From: an uncultured Collinsella sp.
GTDB taxonomy: Bacteria > Actinomycetota > Coriobacteriia > Coriobacteriales > Coriobacteriaceae
Direction of reading: 5' to 3'
Length of the DNA stretch: 64,000 bases
Assembly: GCA_934646815.1 (NCBI GenBank)
Contig: CAKUEW010000001.1
Location: 322,561-386,560, forward strand
In this document: positions 688 to 42,855 of the stretch, in pieces
Numbering within the stretch: position 1 is the stretch's first letter
How the letters are laid out: each line of letters opens with the position of its first letter
The notes under the pieces: model-generated
The model's input: the letters and a program-made list of their open reading frames with translations, nothing else
Told to the model about the DNA's origin: nothing
Databases searched by the model: none
Translations under genes and position numbers: made by a program

Positions 688-2498
688 TGAGCCAGACCGA
701 CTTGCGGGAAAGTGTTAGAACTGCGATTGAGATGCGCTGTGACGGAGATGAATCGCAGTGCTCTGCGATTTTTGCGCCATCGAAGAGGGTATTCGTAGAG
801 GCGCCGGCAGGATACGGGAAAACCACAGTTATGACTGGGCGGGCTTGCTGGCTGCTGGCATCTGGCGAAGTCCGGCCGCCAAAAAGGATTTTGGCCCTAA
901 CCTTCAGCGTCGCCGCCGCGCGGAGAATGCGTACAGATTTGGGTGCCACTATGTCGGCGCTTCCCGGCGCCTTGGCCAAGCACTTTGAGAACAGGGTCAT
1001 GGCGACTAACTTCCACGGCTTTGCTTGGGCCCTGCTGCGCAGGTACTGGAGATCGCTCTTGCTCCCAGTGAACGTTGACGAACTTTCTATGGTCGATGAC
1101 AGCAGCGCCGTTAACGAGTTGAGTTCGCGAGGCGGCAGGCTAATTTGGGATGAAAAGAAGGTCATTGACAACTTCCTCCGCTCCATGAGGAACGGTCAAG
1201 ACGACGACTTGAGATGCCGTGTGCGTTCTTTTAATAGGATCATTAAGGATAGATTCGCACCGAACGGTCTCTTGCCATATTCAGGAATGATTTCCCTTGC
1301 AATTGAATTGCTTGCCGATTTCTCAAAGTTGAGGTCCTATCTGTCGACGGCGTTTCCTGTCGTACTTGTCGACGAAGCACAGGACACGAATGCCCTGTGC
1401 TACATCTTTCTAAAAGGCCTGCTTTCCGATGAATCAGGAATCTGCATGTTCGGCGACCCTATTCAGCGTGTCTATGGTTTTATTGGCGCAATGGAAGGCT
1501 TAAAGACAAAGGCCGCTACCGACCTGTGTCTATCGCAGCTGGAGCTCGAACATAATCATAGGTTTTCTGGGGGATCTATTGTCGGGGAGCTCGGTGCTGC
1601 GATTCGCTCCAACATGAAGGGTGTCATTGCTGGCGGTACGCCCCGACTTCCCATATTTGTTGGCGCTGCACAGCAAGACGAAGCGACAGCCATTGTTTCC
1701 AAGGTTGCGGCGCTCGCCCGAGGTGGTGGCGGGAGGATTGCGATTCTTGTCCGTAAGCGCGGTGCCCTGGCCAACCTCATCATGGACGAGTTGATTAAGG
1801 AGGAGATTCCATACTTCAACGGGCTTTTTTCGGATACAGCCCCAGAGTTCATTGAATTCAATGCGCTTGCTTTATCCAGGATTACCGATGCAGCGACTGG
1901 AGAAAAGGGCGTCAGCCGGTCTGCTGCGGACAAAATAATCAACTCTATCGCTGATGAACTGATGAGTGGCTCCTGGAGATTCGAGTATGGGCGGCCCTAT
2001 GCCATGCTTCTTGGGGCGCTGCGGAAACACCTTAAAAATGACTGCGTCGCGATGGATCCGTCTGAGCGCTTCGACTATATCGTTAGTATCTTTTCCGAGG
2101 GCTCCCTGCGGCGTTTCTCTGATTACCTCGATGCAAATATCTCGATCATGACCATTCACTCTGCTAAGGGACTCGAGTGGGACACCGTTTTCATACCGGG
2201 CGTTACGCGCTTCGATTGGCCTGGAAGGATTTGCTCTCGGTGCGAAAGTGCTGGCATGTGCTCGCGTTCTGCGCGTGGATGCCGGATTGTGGATGCGAAG
2301 AAATTGCCAGACGGGCTTATTGAGGAAATAGGCCTGTTGTACGTCGGTGTCACTCGCGCCCGCAAAGCGGTATATGTCTCCGCTTCTATGCAGCGCAGAA
2401 CAAATTACGGGAACTATCAGGTTGCCTGCCCCTCTTGTCTAACGTCTCTTCCGGGCATTGAGCCTGTGAGTTGGACGGCCATGGACGGGGAGGGGTGA
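681..2498 (+). CDS. gajB: Gabija helicase GajB (UvrD/PcrA-like superfamily 1)
   Basis: A 605-residue superfamily 1 helicase. Visible motifs are Walker A APAGYGKTT near residue 50, motif Ia LTFSVAAARRM, Walker B VLVDEAQD, motif III FGDPIQRVYGF, motif IV LEHNHRF, motif V TIHSAKGLEWDTVF and motif VI LLYVGVTRARKAVY. The ATG lies inside the end of the nuclease gene (7-base overlap), implying coupled translation. In Gabija, GajB hydrolyses nucleotides and works with GajA. It is longer than the roughly 500 residues usual for GajB. Between motifs V and VI sits a four-cysteine cluster (C518, C521, C527, C534) that could bind zinc or an iron-sulfur cluster; this is my inference. Codon use is AT-richer than in the core genes further along. 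Confidence 0.82.
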   Translation: MLMSQTDLRESVRTAIEMRCDGDESQCSAIFAPSKRVFVEAPAGYGKTTVMTGRACWLLASGEVRPPKRILALTFSVAAARRMRTDLGATMSALPGALAKHFENRVMATNFHGFAWALLRRYWRSLLLPVNVDELSMVDDSSAVNELSSRGGRLIWDEKKVIDNFLRSMRNGQDDDLRCRVRSFNRIIKDRFAPNGLLPYSGMISLAIELLADFSKLRSYLSTAFPVVLVDEAQDTNALCYIFLKGLLSDESGICMFGDPIQRVYGFIGAMEGLKTKAATDLCLSQLELEHNHRFSGGSIVGELGAAIRSNMKGVIAGGTPRLPIFVGAAQQDEATAIVSKVAALARGGGGRIAILVRKRGALANLIMDELIKEEIPYFNGLFSDTAPEFIEFNALALSRITDAATGEKGVSRSAADKIINSIADELMSGSWRFEYGRPYAMLLGALRKHLKNDCVAMDPSERFDYIVSIFSEGSLRRFSDYLDANISIMTIHSAKGLEWDTVFIPGVTRFDWPGRICSRCESAGMCSRSARGCRIVDAKKLPDGLIEEIGLLYVGVTRARKAVYVSASMQRRTNYGNYQVACPSCLTSLPGIEPVSWTAMDGEG

Positions 2499-2941
2499 TT
2501 GTTGGCGGAATGGAGTGTGTCCACTATTGGCGTTCCTATTCCAATCCGCATGTTGTTAGGGATACGCAGGCCCTTGTCCTGCAATTGAGTACTTGCTAAA
2601 ACTGGCCTTTTTGCTGTATAGCGTTGACTGAAAAGGGAATAAAGTTTCTCGCCCATCGCGAATTGGCGATGGGGTACGCTACTGCCGTCAATATAGCAAA
2701 CGACGAAATCGCAATTCCGACGTTCGCAACATTGACGCCAGCGTTGCCTGCGGCTAGCTGGATAAGGGCTTCGATGGTCATAAGTACCAATTCCTCGCTT
2801 TCGTCTAGTATGGCATAGGCAAGCATTGTTTTAGGTGGCCGCGAAAGCGTTGGTTGCACTTGCTGCGCCTTTAATTAGCCTGTCCGGGGAGGGTCAGCCG
2901 CCGCTTGTTGATCCGGACAGGTTGATTTATTTGGGGGTATT
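2499..2941 (+). ncRNA. Structured non-coding region upstream of the reverse transcriptase; candidate RT-associated RNA
   Basis: This 443-base gap holds no convincing gene but at least four inverted repeats. They are an imperfect 10-bp stem (2505-2514 with 2540-2549), an 8-bp perfect stem with a 6-base loop (2652-2659 with 2666-2673), a 10-bp stem with one mismatch (2683-2692 with 2731-2740), and a 15-bp stem with two G-U pairs (2873-2887 with 2913-2927). The last ends 6 bases before the RT ribosome site. A weak promoter, TTGCTA at 2593 and TATAGC at 2617 (18-base spacer), could drive it. Several defence RT families (DRT2, DRT9, retrons) use an RNA encoded just upstream as template or cofactor, so a functional RNA is a reasonable inference, but its ends are unknown. 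Small ORFs on both strands overlap these stems and look spurious. Confidence 0.42.
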
Positions 2942-4396
2942 TTGGCCGAGTTCGATATCACTCGTATTCCTCGATATAGTTCAAAAAGTTCATATGCCCA
3001 TTTTGATCATAGGATTTCTTTTGCCGAAGCTCAGGCCAAGATCTTAGATCCAGGGTACGTTTCCCAACACGCGTTCTACCCTCTAATTTCCAACGAGATC
3101 ATTGCTGTTCGGTATCGTGGAGGTAAGCGAAGCTGCAAGGTTCGCAATATCGCTTATGCCTCGCATTTCGATCACCGCGTCTTCCAGTACTACTCTTATC
3201 TTTGGTCGGACTTATATAACAAGAAGGCTATTGCCGTAGAGTTTAATGAGGTTGCCGTAGCGTACCGCTCTTCGCTTTCATCAGACAGTGCCGTAACTGC
3301 TGCCAGCAATATTTCCTCAGCTAAAAGGGCCTTTGATTATATACGCGAGCAAGATTCGGCTTTTGTGCTTACGGGTGATTTCGAGGGCTTCTTCGACAAC
3401 TTAAATCATGCCCATCTAATGAAGTCGTTGCGTTCGTTGTTTCCCGATGGACGTTTGCCGGACGATCACTATCAGGTCATTAAAAACATCCTCCGCTATT
3501 CGTGCTGGCCTATTGCTGATTTAGCGGCTCGGCATGATTTGCCGTGGCCGGCGGTCGAACCTGCTCGGGAGAAGATGATCAGCGACGCAGCTATCGAACT
3601 TCGGTTCAAGGCTATTCGCGAACTTAATAAGCTGGATGTTATCTTGCCTAAGGCAGAGTTTCTTGCAAACAAAAGTAAGGTCATCACCAGGCCGTGGAAG
3701 CGAACGGGTATTGGGCTGGGAATTCCTCAGGGTCTTGCTGCAAGTGGAGGGCTCGCTAACATCTATATGGCCGATATCGATATGAGAGTCAGACTTGCCG
3801 TTGAACGGTTTGGCGGCTTGTATCTTCGTTATTGCGATGACTTTATTGTTGCCGTTCCAAAGTCTGGCTTTGATGCACTTGTAGAGGCCATCAATCTAAT
3901 GGCCGATGTCGATTCCGTTAAACTGCAACCTGATAAAACCAAGGTGTTCCGGGTTGATGGTGACGGAGTCGCTCAGCTTGATTTTGAAAGCGTTCGTGCA
4001 GGTAAGGTCTATTCGTACTCCGGTGCACATCCGGCGCAGAAAGTCAGTTTCCTGGGGTTTGACTTTAACGGGCGCGTTGTAAGACTTCGGCAGTCTACGG
4101 TTGGAAGGTACCACAAACGTCTCCGTGAGGCGGCCACTGCGATTGCGCGTTCTAATCAGGGGGAGGGAAGACACGCATCAAAAAAGCGCGTCTCCGCTTT
4201 GTATCAACATTATTCGCCGCTCGGTATTAAGGGAAGAGGGTTGTGCCCATCGGCTGACGCCGACTCTTCTGCATTTTTCCGCTACGGAAACTTTCTTTCC
4301 TATGCGGCAAGAGCCCAAAAGGCGTTTCCAAATGATCCGATTGCCCCCGATGAGGCTAAGATTTACAGGAAGATTAAACGCTTGAGTGCTCGGTAA
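2942..4396 (+). CDS. Reverse transcriptase, probable anti-phage (DRT-like)
   Basis: A 484-residue RNA-directed DNA polymerase. The palm shows the first catalytic aspartate in VLTGDFEGFFDNLNH, the template-grip motif GIPQGLAASGGLANIYM, and the catalytic box YLRYCDD (Y297, C298, D299, D300), followed by the motif D region LQPDKTKVF and a basic C-terminal part. The maturase X domain and HNH endonuclease of group II intron RTs are absent, as are obvious retron NAxxH and VTG signatures. The chosen start is TTG at 2942, with GGGGG five bases upstream. Position inside a defence island and the structured upstream DNA suggest an antiviral RT of the unknown-group (UG/DRT) type. I cannot assign the DRT class from sequence alone. 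Confidence 0.75.
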   Translation: MAEFDITRIPRYSSKSSYAHFDHRISFAEAQAKILDPGYVSQHAFYPLISNEIIAVRYRGGKRSCKVRNIAYASHFDHRVFQYYSYLWSDLYNKKAIAVEFNEVAVAYRSSLSSDSAVTAASNISSAKRAFDYIREQDSAFVLTGDFEGFFDNLNHAHLMKSLRSLFPDGRLPDDHYQVIKNILRYSCWPIADLAARHDLPWPAVEPAREKMISDAAIELRFKAIRELNKLDVILPKAEFLANKSKVITRPWKRTGIGLGIPQGLAASGGLANIYMADIDMRVRLAVERFGGLYLRYCDDFIVAVPKSGFDALVEAINLMADVDSVKLQPDKTKVFRVDGDGVAQLDFESVRAGKVYSYSGAHPAQKVSFLGFDFNGRVVRLRQSTVGRYHKRLREAATAIARSNQGEGRHASKKRVSALYQHYSPLGIKGRGLCPSADADSSAFFRYGNFLSYAARAQKAFPNDPIAPDEAKIYRKIKRLSAR

Positions 4397-4555: not shown

Positions 4556-5596
4556 TTGGGGAGCACTCTTTCCGTGACGGTCATGGTTGGCAATGGATTT
4601 GATTTGTCGGCAGGATTGAAGACAAGCACCACTAGGTTCATGGATTTCTTTTCCAAAAACCATGCTTCGGATGAAGGCCCAGTTGGCCGCTTGGCAGGTT
4701 GTATTGAAAAAGAAGGAGCGCGGGAGTGGGCTGACTTTGAGAAGAAGCTGGGTGAATATACTTCAAATCTCGAGGTTTACGAGGAAAATGCGGTTGAAGC
4801 TGCACTCGATTGCAAAGAAGCGATAGATGTTGATCTCGCTGCTTTCATTGCGTCGGAAGATAAAAGAGTAACCGATGAATTCATCAAGGCTAACTCCGAA
4901 TATGTCATAGCCTCTTTGGCATATTGGTGTTCCGCGTTGCAGCCTCTGGAAAGACAGAGGATACTTGGTTGCTATTCGACTGATTTTGAGCTGAACGTTT
5001 CTATTGTCACTTTTAACTATACTACGTTACTCCCTCGTCTATTTCATGCTTTCGGAACAAGCGGGCATGCAACCCCAGAGGATAGTTGGGGGGTTTCTTC
5101 CATCCGGCTCATTCATCTTGTCCAGGCTCACGGCGCTCTCGGACGTGAGCCAATATGTGGCGTTAATGATGCGTCCCAGATTGGGTCGGACGCTCTTTCC
5201 AAAAATGAAGATATTGCATCCACCTTTGTAAAAGGCGAAATACAGAAGCTATTCGGTTCCGTTGATGACCGTAGGGCTGAAGATATTATTCTTGGGGCCA
5301 ATATATTGATTATATTTGGCCTGTCGCTCGGAGAGACGGATATTCGCTGGTGGGAAACTGTGGTGAAGCTTCTAAAAAAGGGGGATATTCATTTTGTTTT
5401 GATCGCTTCGACTAAAGCTGTATCCGCCAGAAGGAGCCCTGCGTCTTTTCGTCGTTTTTCAAAAGCGCTTAAGGAAAAATTGTTGACCCGTGGCGGCGCG
5501 AACGATGATGAGAAACGACTGCTTTCTGGACGAATTTTTATTATCCCCGCCGGTTCAATCTTCAGATTTAAAAGCCATATTCCTGATGCTGATTAG
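4556..5596 (+). CDS. abiH: AbiH-family abortive infection protein
   Basis: A 346-residue protein with the AbiH hallmarks. These are an N-terminal nucleotide-binding-like motif GNGFDL at residues 12-17, a central TFNYTTLL, then LVQAHGALG, and a C-terminal LIIFGLSLGETD followed by a tryptophan pair. AbiH proteins block phage in lactococci and are widespread in defence islands; their biochemical activity is not settled. The start is TTG 4556 with AGGGG at 4546-4550. A perfect -10 hexamer TATAAT lies at 4512-4517 in the 159-base gap after the RT gene, though without a clear -35, so the gene may have its own promoter. It could be a partner of the RT or an independent system; adjacency alone does not decide. 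Confidence 0.8.
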   Translation: MGSTLSVTVMVGNGFDLSAGLKTSTTRFMDFFSKNHASDEGPVGRLAGCIEKEGAREWADFEKKLGEYTSNLEVYEENAVEAALDCKEAIDVDLAAFIASEDKRVTDEFIKANSEYVIASLAYWCSALQPLERQRILGCYSTDFELNVSIVTFNYTTLLPRLFHAFGTSGHATPEDSWGVSSIRLIHLVQAHGALGREPICGVNDASQIGSDALSKNEDIASTFVKGEIQKLFGSVDDRRAEDIILGANILIIFGLSLGETDIRWWETVVKLLKKGDIHFVLIASTKAVSARRSPASFRRFSKALKEKLLTRGGANDDEKRLLSGRIFIIPAGSIFRFKSHIPDAD

Positions 5597-6548
5597 GCCT
5601 GATTTCTTCTAGCGTGTTGCTTTTGACAAGTTTCAGCTGTGCTATCTCCGGGCAAGTGCTCACTAATTTGAGTATTCGTTACGGGGAGTGGCTTAGTATG
5701 GGTCTTGACGGTGGCCACCGCTCCGACACGATTGCCTTGATGAATGGCTGATTCATGAAGGGGCTCAAAATTTGATTCGAGAGCTTGGCGGCATTGGATT
5801 GACGGCCTTGCTAGTTCTCCCTTAAAGAAATACGCGTGATGAGGCCTTGCGACGATACGTTCGGCTTGGTCCGTGGGAACCGCCGAAAGGCGGTTTCGCG
5901 TTTAAAGGGCTGTTTGCCGAAGGGCATTTGTTCGCATTCGCTTCTGGCAGTGGATTTATATCGCGTATTTCGGAAGTGCGGGGAAAAATCGAAACTTGCC
6001 GTGCACACTCCGATTTTTTGCCAACAAAATCGCAGATCGCAAGAGTCCAAAACCGGGGTCTGGTCGGCAGGTCTCATTTTCTACCGCACTTCCGAGTTCA
6101 CCTGTCGATAATGTGCGGCGGCCTCTGGAATCCCCGAGAGCGTCGGCCTTTTAGCATAAAGCGCATCGTCCCCCCCCCCGGGGGGCTTCTGGGGCGCGGC
6201 TCTTCTGGTTAAACTACTCAATTCTCAATGCTCACCGTGCTCAATTCTCGATGACCATTCGGACTACTTTTAAGTGGGCATCAGCAGGTTGAGTCGGGGA
6301 GGGGAGAGCTGAGGTGGATGAGGCGTATTTGTCCTGGCGTTATGTTCCGCGCTTATTGGGCTATGCGCGATACGGCGGCTTTAGTATGAGGCCGGCTTGC
6401 GCTTCTTCGGGATCCCATACTGACACCTTCCAGGTCCGATTTATGTCCGCGCCGGTAGTTATGCTTTAAGCAAAGCGGCACGAGTGAACTTGCTACAAGC
6501 CTCATGCTGTGAGCACGTTAATCAATCGGTCGTGAAGGCGAGGTGAGT
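5597..6548. other. Intergenic region with decayed sequence and one repeat element
   Basis: About 950 bases with no intact gene. A frame at 5709-5825 reads like a fragment of a real protein (EWLIHEGAQNLIRELGG) but lacks a start and is closed on both sides, so it may be the remnant of a lost defence gene. The region also holds a 124-bp inverted-repeat element (listed separately), a homopolymer junction of ten C followed by six G at 6170-6185, and a short direct repeat CTCAATTCTC near 6220 and 6250. ORFs read through the repeat are not credible genes. Confidence 0.6.
5971..6094 (+). repeat. MITE-like inverted-repeat element, copy 1
   Basis: A 124-bp element whose ends form an 11-bp perfect inverted repeat, CGGAAGTGCGG against CCGCACTTCCG. 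A copy of identical length in the same orientation lies at 8545-8668. The two share a 24-base identical start, the internal block TTTTGCCAACAAAA, the block GGGGTCTGGTCG and the end CGCACTTCCG, with substitutions between. Size, terminal inversion and lack of coding capacity fit a non-autonomous MITE or a structured extragenic repeat. No target-site duplication is obvious. Confidence 0.75.
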
Positions 6549-6970: not shown

Positions 6971-8071
6971 ATGCTTAAGTGTTTTACTGTTGATGGCTAT
7001 AGGAATTTTCCGAATCCGGTTACATTTGATTTTGCAGCTTCTCGTGATTACCAGTTTGCAGAAAATAACGTTAAAAACGGAACCGTGAAAACCGCACTTT
7101 TGATCGGCAGAAATGCGTCTGGTAAATCGAATTTTGGTTCAGCTTTATTCGACATTACGCTCGGCTTTCCAAAGGCGTTCGATTATTCTGACCAGGACGA
7201 TCGTCTGTTTTTGAATGCTGATTGCGGGCGAGGCACGGCACAGTTCACTTATGTCTTTGAATTTGACGGTCGCGAAATCAATTACAGCTATGAAAAGACA
7301 TCCCCCACTACTTGGCTTCACGAGAGCCTATCGATTGATGAGAGTCTCATTTTCGATTTCAATAATGCACGCGGCGTTTTCATGGAGAACCACCTTGAAC
7401 GAATCGGTGCAGCTGGGGTCAATTTTGAATTCTCTGATACTTCGCTGAGCCTTCTTTCTTATATAACGAGTAGCCTTCCAACTGATGTTTTAGGCGTCTT
7501 GGCTGAATTACGCCGATTTGTCTCGCGCATGAGGCTGATTCGCATGGACGTTTTTCGATTAAAAGGGTTTGAAACAAGAAAGGTAATCGACAAAATCATA
7601 CGCGAGAACAAAGTTGCGGAATTCGAGTCATTTATTCGCAATTTTGGAGTCGATGAGTCTCTGATCGTTATTAAAGAGTCCGACGGCTCGCCTGTTCTGT
7701 ACTTCAATCATCCCGTGCGATGCATCCCGTTTGTCGAGGCGTGCTCTAGCGGTACAAGAACTCTGGTTAAGCTGTTCTCTGAGCTTGAGCTTAACGAGTC
7801 AGCCAGCTTTTTGTTCATAGATGAGTTTGACGCTTTTTGTCACTTTGAGATGGCAGAGAGCCTTTTGAAGCTTTTTGCTTCCAAGGCATCTTGTCAGATA
7901 CTGTGTTCCACTCACAACACTTCGCTTGTTAAGAACGGCGTCATGCGGCCTGACTGCGTATATCAAATCTCTTCAAATAATGGCATTCGTACTTTGGCTG
8001 ATTCCACCGATCGCGAGTTGAGACTTGGCAACAACATTGAAAAGCTCCTCCGTGCCGGAGAGTTTGATTAG
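6971..8071 (+). CDS. AAA-family ATPase (AAA15/OLD-like), probable defence protein
   Basis: A 366-residue ABC-type ATPase of the AAA15/AAA21 group. It starts with the typical LKCFTVDGYRNF strand and has Walker A GRNASGKS at 46-53, Walker B FLFIDEFDAF (D284, E285) and the switch histidine in CSTHNTSLV. No nuclease domain is fused to it. Such ATPases usually work with an effector encoded directly downstream, as in RloAB, PARIS or similar two-gene systems. Here only a 36-residue ORF follows (8074-8187), so the partner appears lost or truncated. The gene is AT-rich compared with the core genes and is bracketed by copies of the 124-bp repeat. A 21-bp palindrome covers its ribosome site. Confidence 0.72.
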   Translation: MLKCFTVDGYRNFPNPVTFDFAASRDYQFAENNVKNGTVKTALLIGRNASGKSNFGSALFDITLGFPKAFDYSDQDDRLFLNADCGRGTAQFTYVFEFDGREINYSYEKTSPTTWLHESLSIDESLIFDFNNARGVFMENHLERIGAAGVNFEFSDTSLSLLSYITSSLPTDVLGVLAELRRFVSRMRLIRMDVFRLKGFETRKVIDKIIRENKVAEFESFIRNFGVDESLIVIKESDGSPVLYFNHPVRCIPFVEACSSGTRTLVKLFSELELNESASFLFIDEFDAFCHFEMAESLLKLFASKASCQILCSTHNTSLVKNGVMRPDCVYQISSNNGIRTLADSTDRELRLGNNIEKLLRAGEFD

Positions 8072-8544: not shown

Positions 8545-8668
8545 CGGAAGTGCGGGGAAAAATCGAAAACCTCCGAGCACAACCCGATTTTTGCCAACAA
8601 AACCGCAGGTCGCGGAAGTTTAAAACTGGGGTCTGGTCGAACGACCTCGGTTTTACCTCGCACTTCCG
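8545..8668 (+). repeat. MITE-like inverted-repeat element, copy 2
   Basis: Same length (124 bp) and orientation as the copy at 5971-6094, with terminal inverted repeat CGGAAGTGCG / CGCACTTCCG. The first 24 bases are identical to copy 1, and the internal blocks TTTTGCCAACAAAA and GGGGTCTGGTCG are conserved. Copies 1 and 2 form a direct repeat around the DUF2188 and ATPase genes, so recombination between them could delete that segment. Confidence 0.75.
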
Positions 8669-42671: not shown

Positions 42672-42746
42672 TCCTCGGTAGCTCAATGGTAGAGCACGCG
42701 GCTGTTAACCGCGCTGTTGTAGGTTCGAGTCCTACCCGGGGAGCCA
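42672..42746 (+). tRNA. tRNA-Asn (anticodon GTT), copy 1
   Basis: A 75-base cloverleaf with encoded CCA. The acceptor stem is TCCTCGG with CCGGGGA, the D arm GCTC...GAGC, the anticodon stem CGCGG/CCGCG with loop CTGTTAA (anticodon GTT), and the T arm GTAGG TTCGAGT CCTAC. All stems pair. Confidence 0.96.
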
Positions 42747-42755
42747 GAATTTCTC

Positions 42756-42776
42756 AGCCCATTCCGCTGGGCTTTT
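42756..42776 (+). terminator. Small hairpin between the two tRNAs
   Basis: AGCCCA (42756-42761) pairs with TGGGCT (42768-42773) and is followed by TTT. It may be a weak terminator or a processing signal in the tandem tRNA transcript. Confidence 0.5.
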
Positions 42777-42780
42777 AAAT

Positions 42781-42855
42781 TCCTCGGTAGCTCAATGGTA
42801 GAGCACGCGGCTGTTAACCGCGCTGTTGTAGGTTCGAGTCCTACCCGGGGAGCCA
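42781..42855 (+). tRNA. tRNA-Asn (anticodon GTT), copy 2
   Basis: Identical over all 75 bases to the copy at 42672-42746, including CCA. It lies 34 bases downstream with no promoter of its own visible, so the two are probably co-transcribed. Confidence 0.96.

Follow-up and report, generated by a model that had tools for sequence, protein, structure and literature searches.

The reverse transcriptase (RT) locus near the start of the window, i.e. of the whole stretch of 64,000 nucleotides of Collinsella DNA analysed here, belongs with a probability of about 85% to a divergent branch of the DRT2 anti-phage systems and would make the gene neo by repeat copying. Both the RT open reading frame, which has a TTG start, and the gap between the helicase stop and the RT (2499-2941) were found as the original prediction had described them. 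Its view of the locus as an antiviral system of an RT and an upstream RNA is supported by the RT family and by conservation and covariation of the RNA, while the antiviral action itself we infer.

2942-4396, plus strand: DRT2-family RT of 484 aa, with YCDD at 3830-3841 and the motif-A Asp146 kept

The class of the RT had been considered not assignable, but a profile search places it in the Drt2 family. The PADLOC profile Drt2 (PDLC03757) matches with E 7.7e-109, the best other family with E 5.1e-21, and PDB chain 9c0i, whose names include Drt2, with E 1.6e-31. Four distinct solved sequences match the RT, three of the DRT2 type (E 1.5e-31 to 2.3e-29; one of them named only RNA-dependent DNA polymerase) and DRT1 (E 2.3e-6), and all 24 members of the RT alignment A1 match Drt2 models. 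The catalytic aspartates are present, though with 274 bits the RT stays below the equivalog cut-off of 390 of the NCBIfam Drt2 model. DRT9 is identical to UG28. As in DRT9, a class 2 RT is combined with an RNA, but the Drt9 profile matches with E 1.1e-14 compared to 7.7e-109 for Drt2, and the RT thus falls outside the Drt9 family, whose product is described as a homopolymer of deoxyadenylate made on a poly-U tract as template (PMC12632851). Retrons likewise have a structured RNA preceding the RT, but retron profiles match the window RT far worse and do not claim it for their family, and the architecture of the RNA is that of DRT2.

Relatives of the RT comprise 214 proteins at E <= 1e-3 among 7997 scored candidates. 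Among the best 120 of these 214 matches, cluster P0009 is 89% identical to the RT and represents 3915 sequences; the nearest relative with DNA is locus L001 of Collinsella aerofaciens (RT 92% identical). Of 43 whole genomes from the genus of L001, 3 have an RT relative at E 1e-20, as do 10 of the 396 from its class. In viral contigs a single-protein scan confirmed no RT relative and an alignment scan found 8 distant ones, and a template-pattern scan had no match. Residues ∼190-220 of the RT are an insertion found in the window and the near relatives P0009, P0012, P0015, P0038, P0039, and P0041; the other A1 members are without it.

Positions 1-2498 hold a GajA-like nuclease gene truncated by the window edge, of which the C-terminal part remains, and a gene for a GajB-like helicase, which means that Gabija lies directly upstream. 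No relative of Gabija was found in the related loci compared, including the L001 stretch (E 1e-4). The similarity of window and L001 (2635-6094, 88%) begins at 2635. Therefore the RNA is limited to ∼2635-2930 and, given also the missing Gabija relative, the system begins at the RNA and not at the helicase stop. Downstream of the RT, an AbiH-like gene (4556-5596; Pfam AbiH, E 7.2e-24) and a gene for a PDC-M12A/AbiLi-like ATPase (6971-8071) have close relatives near the RT in L001, and these neighbours constitute a defence island. Since an AbiH relative is found beside the RT only in L001 (86%) and Gabija in none, both were left out of the system. The region also holds two copies of an intergenic element (5973-6092 and 8547-8666) with inverted ends ∼100 bp apart (GAAGTGCGG...), to which a related sequence exists in L001. 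Two tandem tRNA-Asn genes with equal scores (42672-42855) are a possible integration site.

The gap had been described as highly structured and free of a credible gene. A structured RNA is indeed present, but only in the part given above, with the following elements:

∼2635-2930 (ends approximate), plus strand: DRT2-type ncRNA, aligned at full length in five Collinsella loci
2652-2673, plus strand: 5' handle hairpin with an 8-bp stem (2652-2659 with 2666-2673), its end lying 7 nt ahead of the template
2834-2839, plus strand: pseudoknot strand 1, GGTGGC, pairing with 2897-2902 including one G-U; seen in relatives and in Collinsella
2897-2902, plus strand: pseudoknot strand 2, GCCGCC, within the loop of the 3' hairpin
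2873-2927, plus strand: 3' hairpin (2873-2887 with 2913-2927), carrying a pseudoknot strand in its loop

Of the four inverted repeats claimed for the gap, the last stem (2873-2887/2913-2927) is present with 15-nt arms that are 87% complementary and 25 nt apart, and 2652-2662/2663-2673 as well as 2682-2709/2714-2741 were seen in a list of 14 pairs, which was built from 6-base seeds and includes chance pairs. The last stem is a component of the DRT2-type RNA scaffold. Its finish immediately before the ribosome site would also suit a leader or attenuator regulating the RT gene, a very improbable explanation, as 2400-3000 contains a single terminator-like site, located on the minus strand, and as pseudoknot and template anatomy agree with the DRT2 RNA (PMC12596737). 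In the Klebsiella RNA, the pseudoknot of G155-C159 with G250-C254 is arranged as here (PMC12596737). An automatic pseudoknot pick in the window returned an overlapping pairing, slightly shifted from 2834-2839/2897-2902. A promoter of the ncRNA itself was not found in the window, and Rfam at gathering scores had no match at the RT locus.

The RNA 2645-2932 folds with -106.3 kcal/mol compared to -94.2 +/- 5.2 for 200 shuffles (z -2.32; 2/200 as good), and 2825-2934 alone reaches z -1.81 (10/200 shuffles as good). Folding energy by itself is modest, and the deciding evidence comes from conservation and covariation. Relatives share the order of a hairpin, a conserved ATTGTTGTCAA-like stretch (ACTGCCGTCAA in the window), then a variable region, a stretch resembling ATTG, and finally a 3' domain with a terminal long hairpin. 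Covariation of the pseudoknot and the last stem is strong in 18 Bacillota and weaker in 5 Collinsella loci. For the 18 Bacillota 3' domains, taken from loci with a confident unit and with the structure drawn on the first row (L009), the pseudoknot (7 bp) and the hairpin (12 bp) are paired in 341/341 cells, both-sided changes occur at 14 of 19 pairs, and the covariation score is 0.621 versus 0.335 +/- 0.020 after shuffling (0/500 as high), slid versions reaching at most 0.279. In the 5 Collinsella loci, 88.0% of 142 cells are paired, with both-sided changes at 7 of 29 pairs and a score of 0.310 versus 0.190 (0/500 as high). The Collinsella pseudoknot has a both-sided change in only one of six pairs, and their 5' handle is paired in 70% of cells, partly owing to misalignment. 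The number of further pair types was not in excess over shuffles (486/500 in Bacillota and 275/500 in Collinsella as high). Model R1, built on the Bacillota 3' domain, matched 8 of 27 sources at E < 1e-3 and L047 at 0.028; the window and 8 other Coriobacteriia loci (L001-L004, L006-L008, L045) all stayed unmatched.

Between the 5' handle and the 3' domain lies the template, and here the claim that no credible gene exists needs amendment, as a minus-strand frame overlaps the template and corresponds to the predicted frame of the Neo repeat:

2681-2824, plus strand: template region of 144 nt, i.e. 48 codons; its minus strand after head-to-tail copying gives LAYAILDESEELVLMTIEALIQLAAGNAGVNVANVGIAISSFAILTAV per repeat
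2681-2684, plus strand: 5' bracket ACTG, within the template
2825-2828, plus strand: 3' bracket ATTG, immediately outside the template
2686-2691, minus strand: -35 element TTGACG of the predicted promoter across the repeat junction
2807-2815, minus strand: extended -10 (TGC + CATACT), brought to 17 bp from the -35 by head-to-tail copying only
2779-2796, minus strand: putative neo ribosome site GAGG (2796-2793) and ATG (2781-2779), 11 nt apart
2596-2859, minus strand: open frame of 87 aa, overlapping the template

A sigma-70-like site on the minus strand occurs only in the head-to-tail copy and not in the genomic arrangement of 2600-2900. The junction promoter of the window is weak, with 9 of 12 letters and the TG, the -10 matching at 4 of 6 positions. 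The unit is divisible by three and its frame endless upon repetition, but 8402 of 20000 random 144-nt segments of the window are open too, and the open unit of the window taken alone is weak evidence. A near-repeat (AGCGTTGACTG at 2620 and AGCGTTGCCTG at 2740) exactly 120 nt apart was also considered as unit; it is open in 3 of 6 frames when joined and resembled the 120-nt unit of Klebsiella. It was ruled out, since the copy at 2620 is outside the region shared with L001 (from 2635) and absent from L001.

Evidence for the unit was sought in the upstream regions of 67 loci, by a search for -35 and -10 elements at 17 bp and for brackets with at least 2 of 3 letters equal, in which reading frames were ignored. 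A score of at least 11 was reached by 42 of the 67 loci, and all 42 units are multiples of 3 and stop-free, with the open frame being frame 1 in 34 and frame 0 in 8. The latter are non-AY loci, whose ACA register is offset by a single base, and frame 0 was chosen for them after seeing the result. Among 2010 shuffles, 114 score at least 11; in 35 of these the unit is divisible by 3, and in 5 frame 1 is open. No score-11 candidate exists in 25 of the 67 loci, nine of these being the window and L001-L008. These nine fit with a looser -10: all yield a suitable candidate of 129, 138 or 144 nt, which is without competitor in seven of them; L001 has one competitor and L002 three, and for both the candidate matching other loci was taken. 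By the looser rules 228 of 2700 shuffles yield a candidate, the top one being open in 16. In total, 51 units were obtained, all stop-free. They form 30 clusters at 75% identity, and 30/30 clusters are open versus 6.8 expected from random segments of the same loci. L056 and L058, which are partial matches, were outside the unit scan, and L067-L080, where checked, repeat L003-L008 and L045 (L067, L068, L069, L070, L072, and L073 are from the genomes of L001, L002, L003, and L007).

Forty-three of the 51 loci with a unit are of the AY-type, i.e. their 5' bracket starts with A and a pyrimidine. Their units have 120-171 nt (n=43), and the brackets are ATTG/ATTG in 19/43 and ACTG/ATTG in 3/43 including the window. 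Due to the 2/3 requirement the likeness of the brackets is partly imposed, while the full ATTG/ATTG in 19/43 is not. A TGn precedes the -10 in 36/43 AY-type units versus 1/8 others. Exactly 7 nt separate the best 5' hairpin from the unit in 34/43 AY-type loci, and 8 nt do so in 6/8 non-AY loci. Start codon and ribosome site are located at codons 12-16 in 36/51 units. Outside the unit the frame soon closes, with medians of 34 nt beyond the unit end and 41 nt ahead of the unit start.

That the minus-strand frame 2596-2859 is open for 87 aa could also indicate an ordinary small gene. We give this hardly any weight, since in relatives the frame is open over the whole unit, even upstream of the start codon, and closes soon after its end, since it has no Pfam match, and since it sits inside a covarying RNA of the opposite strand. 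It is likewise unlikely that a DRT2-family RT and its RNA make a cDNA that is no gene, with the DNA itself or another product as effector. Without translation, multiple-of-3 units, a frame that is open only within the unit, and the promoter geometry would be purposeless, but three observations do fit such a cDNA: the codon-position test of the neo frame gave no clear third-position bias, the -10 is weak in Coriobacteriia, and five Lachnospiraceae loci (L036, L038, L039, L050, L057) have the scaffold but a short stretch and no open unit. By eye, the latter have a 5' handle and a 3' hairpin with only a short intervening stretch, and scans of them gave no open unit. L036, the sole one of the five given to R1, was matched (E 1.3e-6). 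In the ∼300 nt upstream of the RT match of these loci, the DNA before the match seems to encode a Cys-rich N-terminal extension. No open unit was found in L053, which has the RNA domain, and no unit candidate in L045 or L081 (annotated drt2); in L030 the unit is 180 nt by the end of R1 (also open) and 120 nt by the search. Indels were seen in 6 of 32 unit pairs (at least 72% identity), each a multiple of 3, but depend on the unit lengths and were therefore not counted as separate evidence.

The DRT2 system of Klebsiella pneumoniae with neo is the closest known counterpart in RT family and YCDD motif (PMC12039810, PMC11100668, PMC12596737). As described in PMC12039810, its -10 sits at one end of the template and its -35 at the other, the joining of repeats brings the two to a distance of 17 bp, and its unit is a multiple of three with an open frame on the cDNA strand. 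The window shares this junction geometry and the stop-free multiple-of-3 unit, the ribosome site and start codon downstream of the -10, and an upstream ncRNA of ∼280 nt with 5' handle, central template, and pseudoknotted 3' domain. In contrast, the brackets are A-pyrimidine and not ACA, the unit has 144 and not 120 nt, the RT 484 and not 425 aa, TGn is usually ahead of the -10 in the AY-type, and the hexamers of Coriobacteriia are off-consensus. Repeated ACA brackets have been published for Klebsiella DRT2 together with 42 of its close relatives, and were not stated as a general DRT2 rule. Since ACA does not bracket the template of the window (ACTG/ATTG), our claim is limited to a divergent DRT2 branch.

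A tree of 55 RTs has ACA labelled at the bracket site only in L060-L063, L065, and L082. These 6 rows are on one side of a branch with 100/100 support if unlabelled rows are set aside, and a fork of just the six has support of 100/93. The window and L001-L008 form one group of 9 rows (100/98), which lies among Bacillota loci, and L045, also of Coriobacteriia, is placed elsewhere. A new or poorly described branch in Coriobacteria, as had been suggested, is borne out in part, as a divergent DRT2 branch in Coriobacteriia that sits among Bacillota loci. Finer bracket spellings do not sort cleanly on the tree: AYTG-like rows require 5 changes and ATTT-like rows 4. Tentatively, a second DRT2 "jump code" can be imagined, by which the branch of Bacillota and Coriobacteriia would use A-pyrimidine brackets, ATTG in most cases, in place of ACA for realignment and express neo from an extended -10. 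The hexamers of Coriobacteriia (TTGACG or TTTACG with CATACT, CACAAT and the like) would be so off-consensus that neo might depend on a special polymerase or one altered by the phage, as was speculated for some DRT2 systems (PMC12039810), and the nested Lachnospiraceae may have lost neo and make another product from a very short template. We regard this extended scheme as possible but doubtful.

For the divergent DRT2 system as such we propose a mechanism by analogy with Klebsiella, from which RNA binding, the jumping with its exact register, second-strand synthesis, transcription, growth arrest, and defence are adopted. The RT family, the RNA architecture with its covariation, the length and open frame of the unit, and the promoter geometry come from the sequences analysed here. 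The RT would bind the ncRNA via the 5' handle and the 3' domain with its pseudoknot and, upon infection, copy the 144-nt template. The nascent cDNA end, complementary to ACTG (2681-2684), would re-pair with ATTG at 2825-2828 with one G-U wobble, and copying would restart to yield head-to-tail repeats. Each junction would set TTGACG 17 bp ahead of the extended -10 (TGC-CATACT), so that the repeats could be transcribed on the strand opposite to the ncRNA and translated into Neo, an endless protein of 48-residue repeats, which would halt growth.

The DRT2 preprint reports Neo for the great majority of systems that are related to that of Klebsiella, and states that it is harder to annotate in more divergent clades, where alternative mechanisms are possible (PMC11100668). 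The words Collinsella, Coriobacter, Firmicutes, and Actinobacter are absent from its main text, the accessible text of PMC12632851 names no such clade, and a literature search for Collinsella and DRT2 returned nothing relevant. The branch described here may be one of the divergent clades in which PMC11100668 found Neo hard to annotate. Its RT probably copies a folded RNA repeatedly and thereby creates a gene that is present nowhere in the genome, and judged from sequence, the copying signals of this gut-bacterial branch appear to differ from those of the studied Klebsiella system. A single changed rule, that of the brackets, makes Neo readable in a divergent gut-bacterial branch, provides exact junctions for a PCR test, and separates these loci from relatives in which neo seems truly missing. 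It also bears on how telomerase-like realignment is coded within a template RNA.
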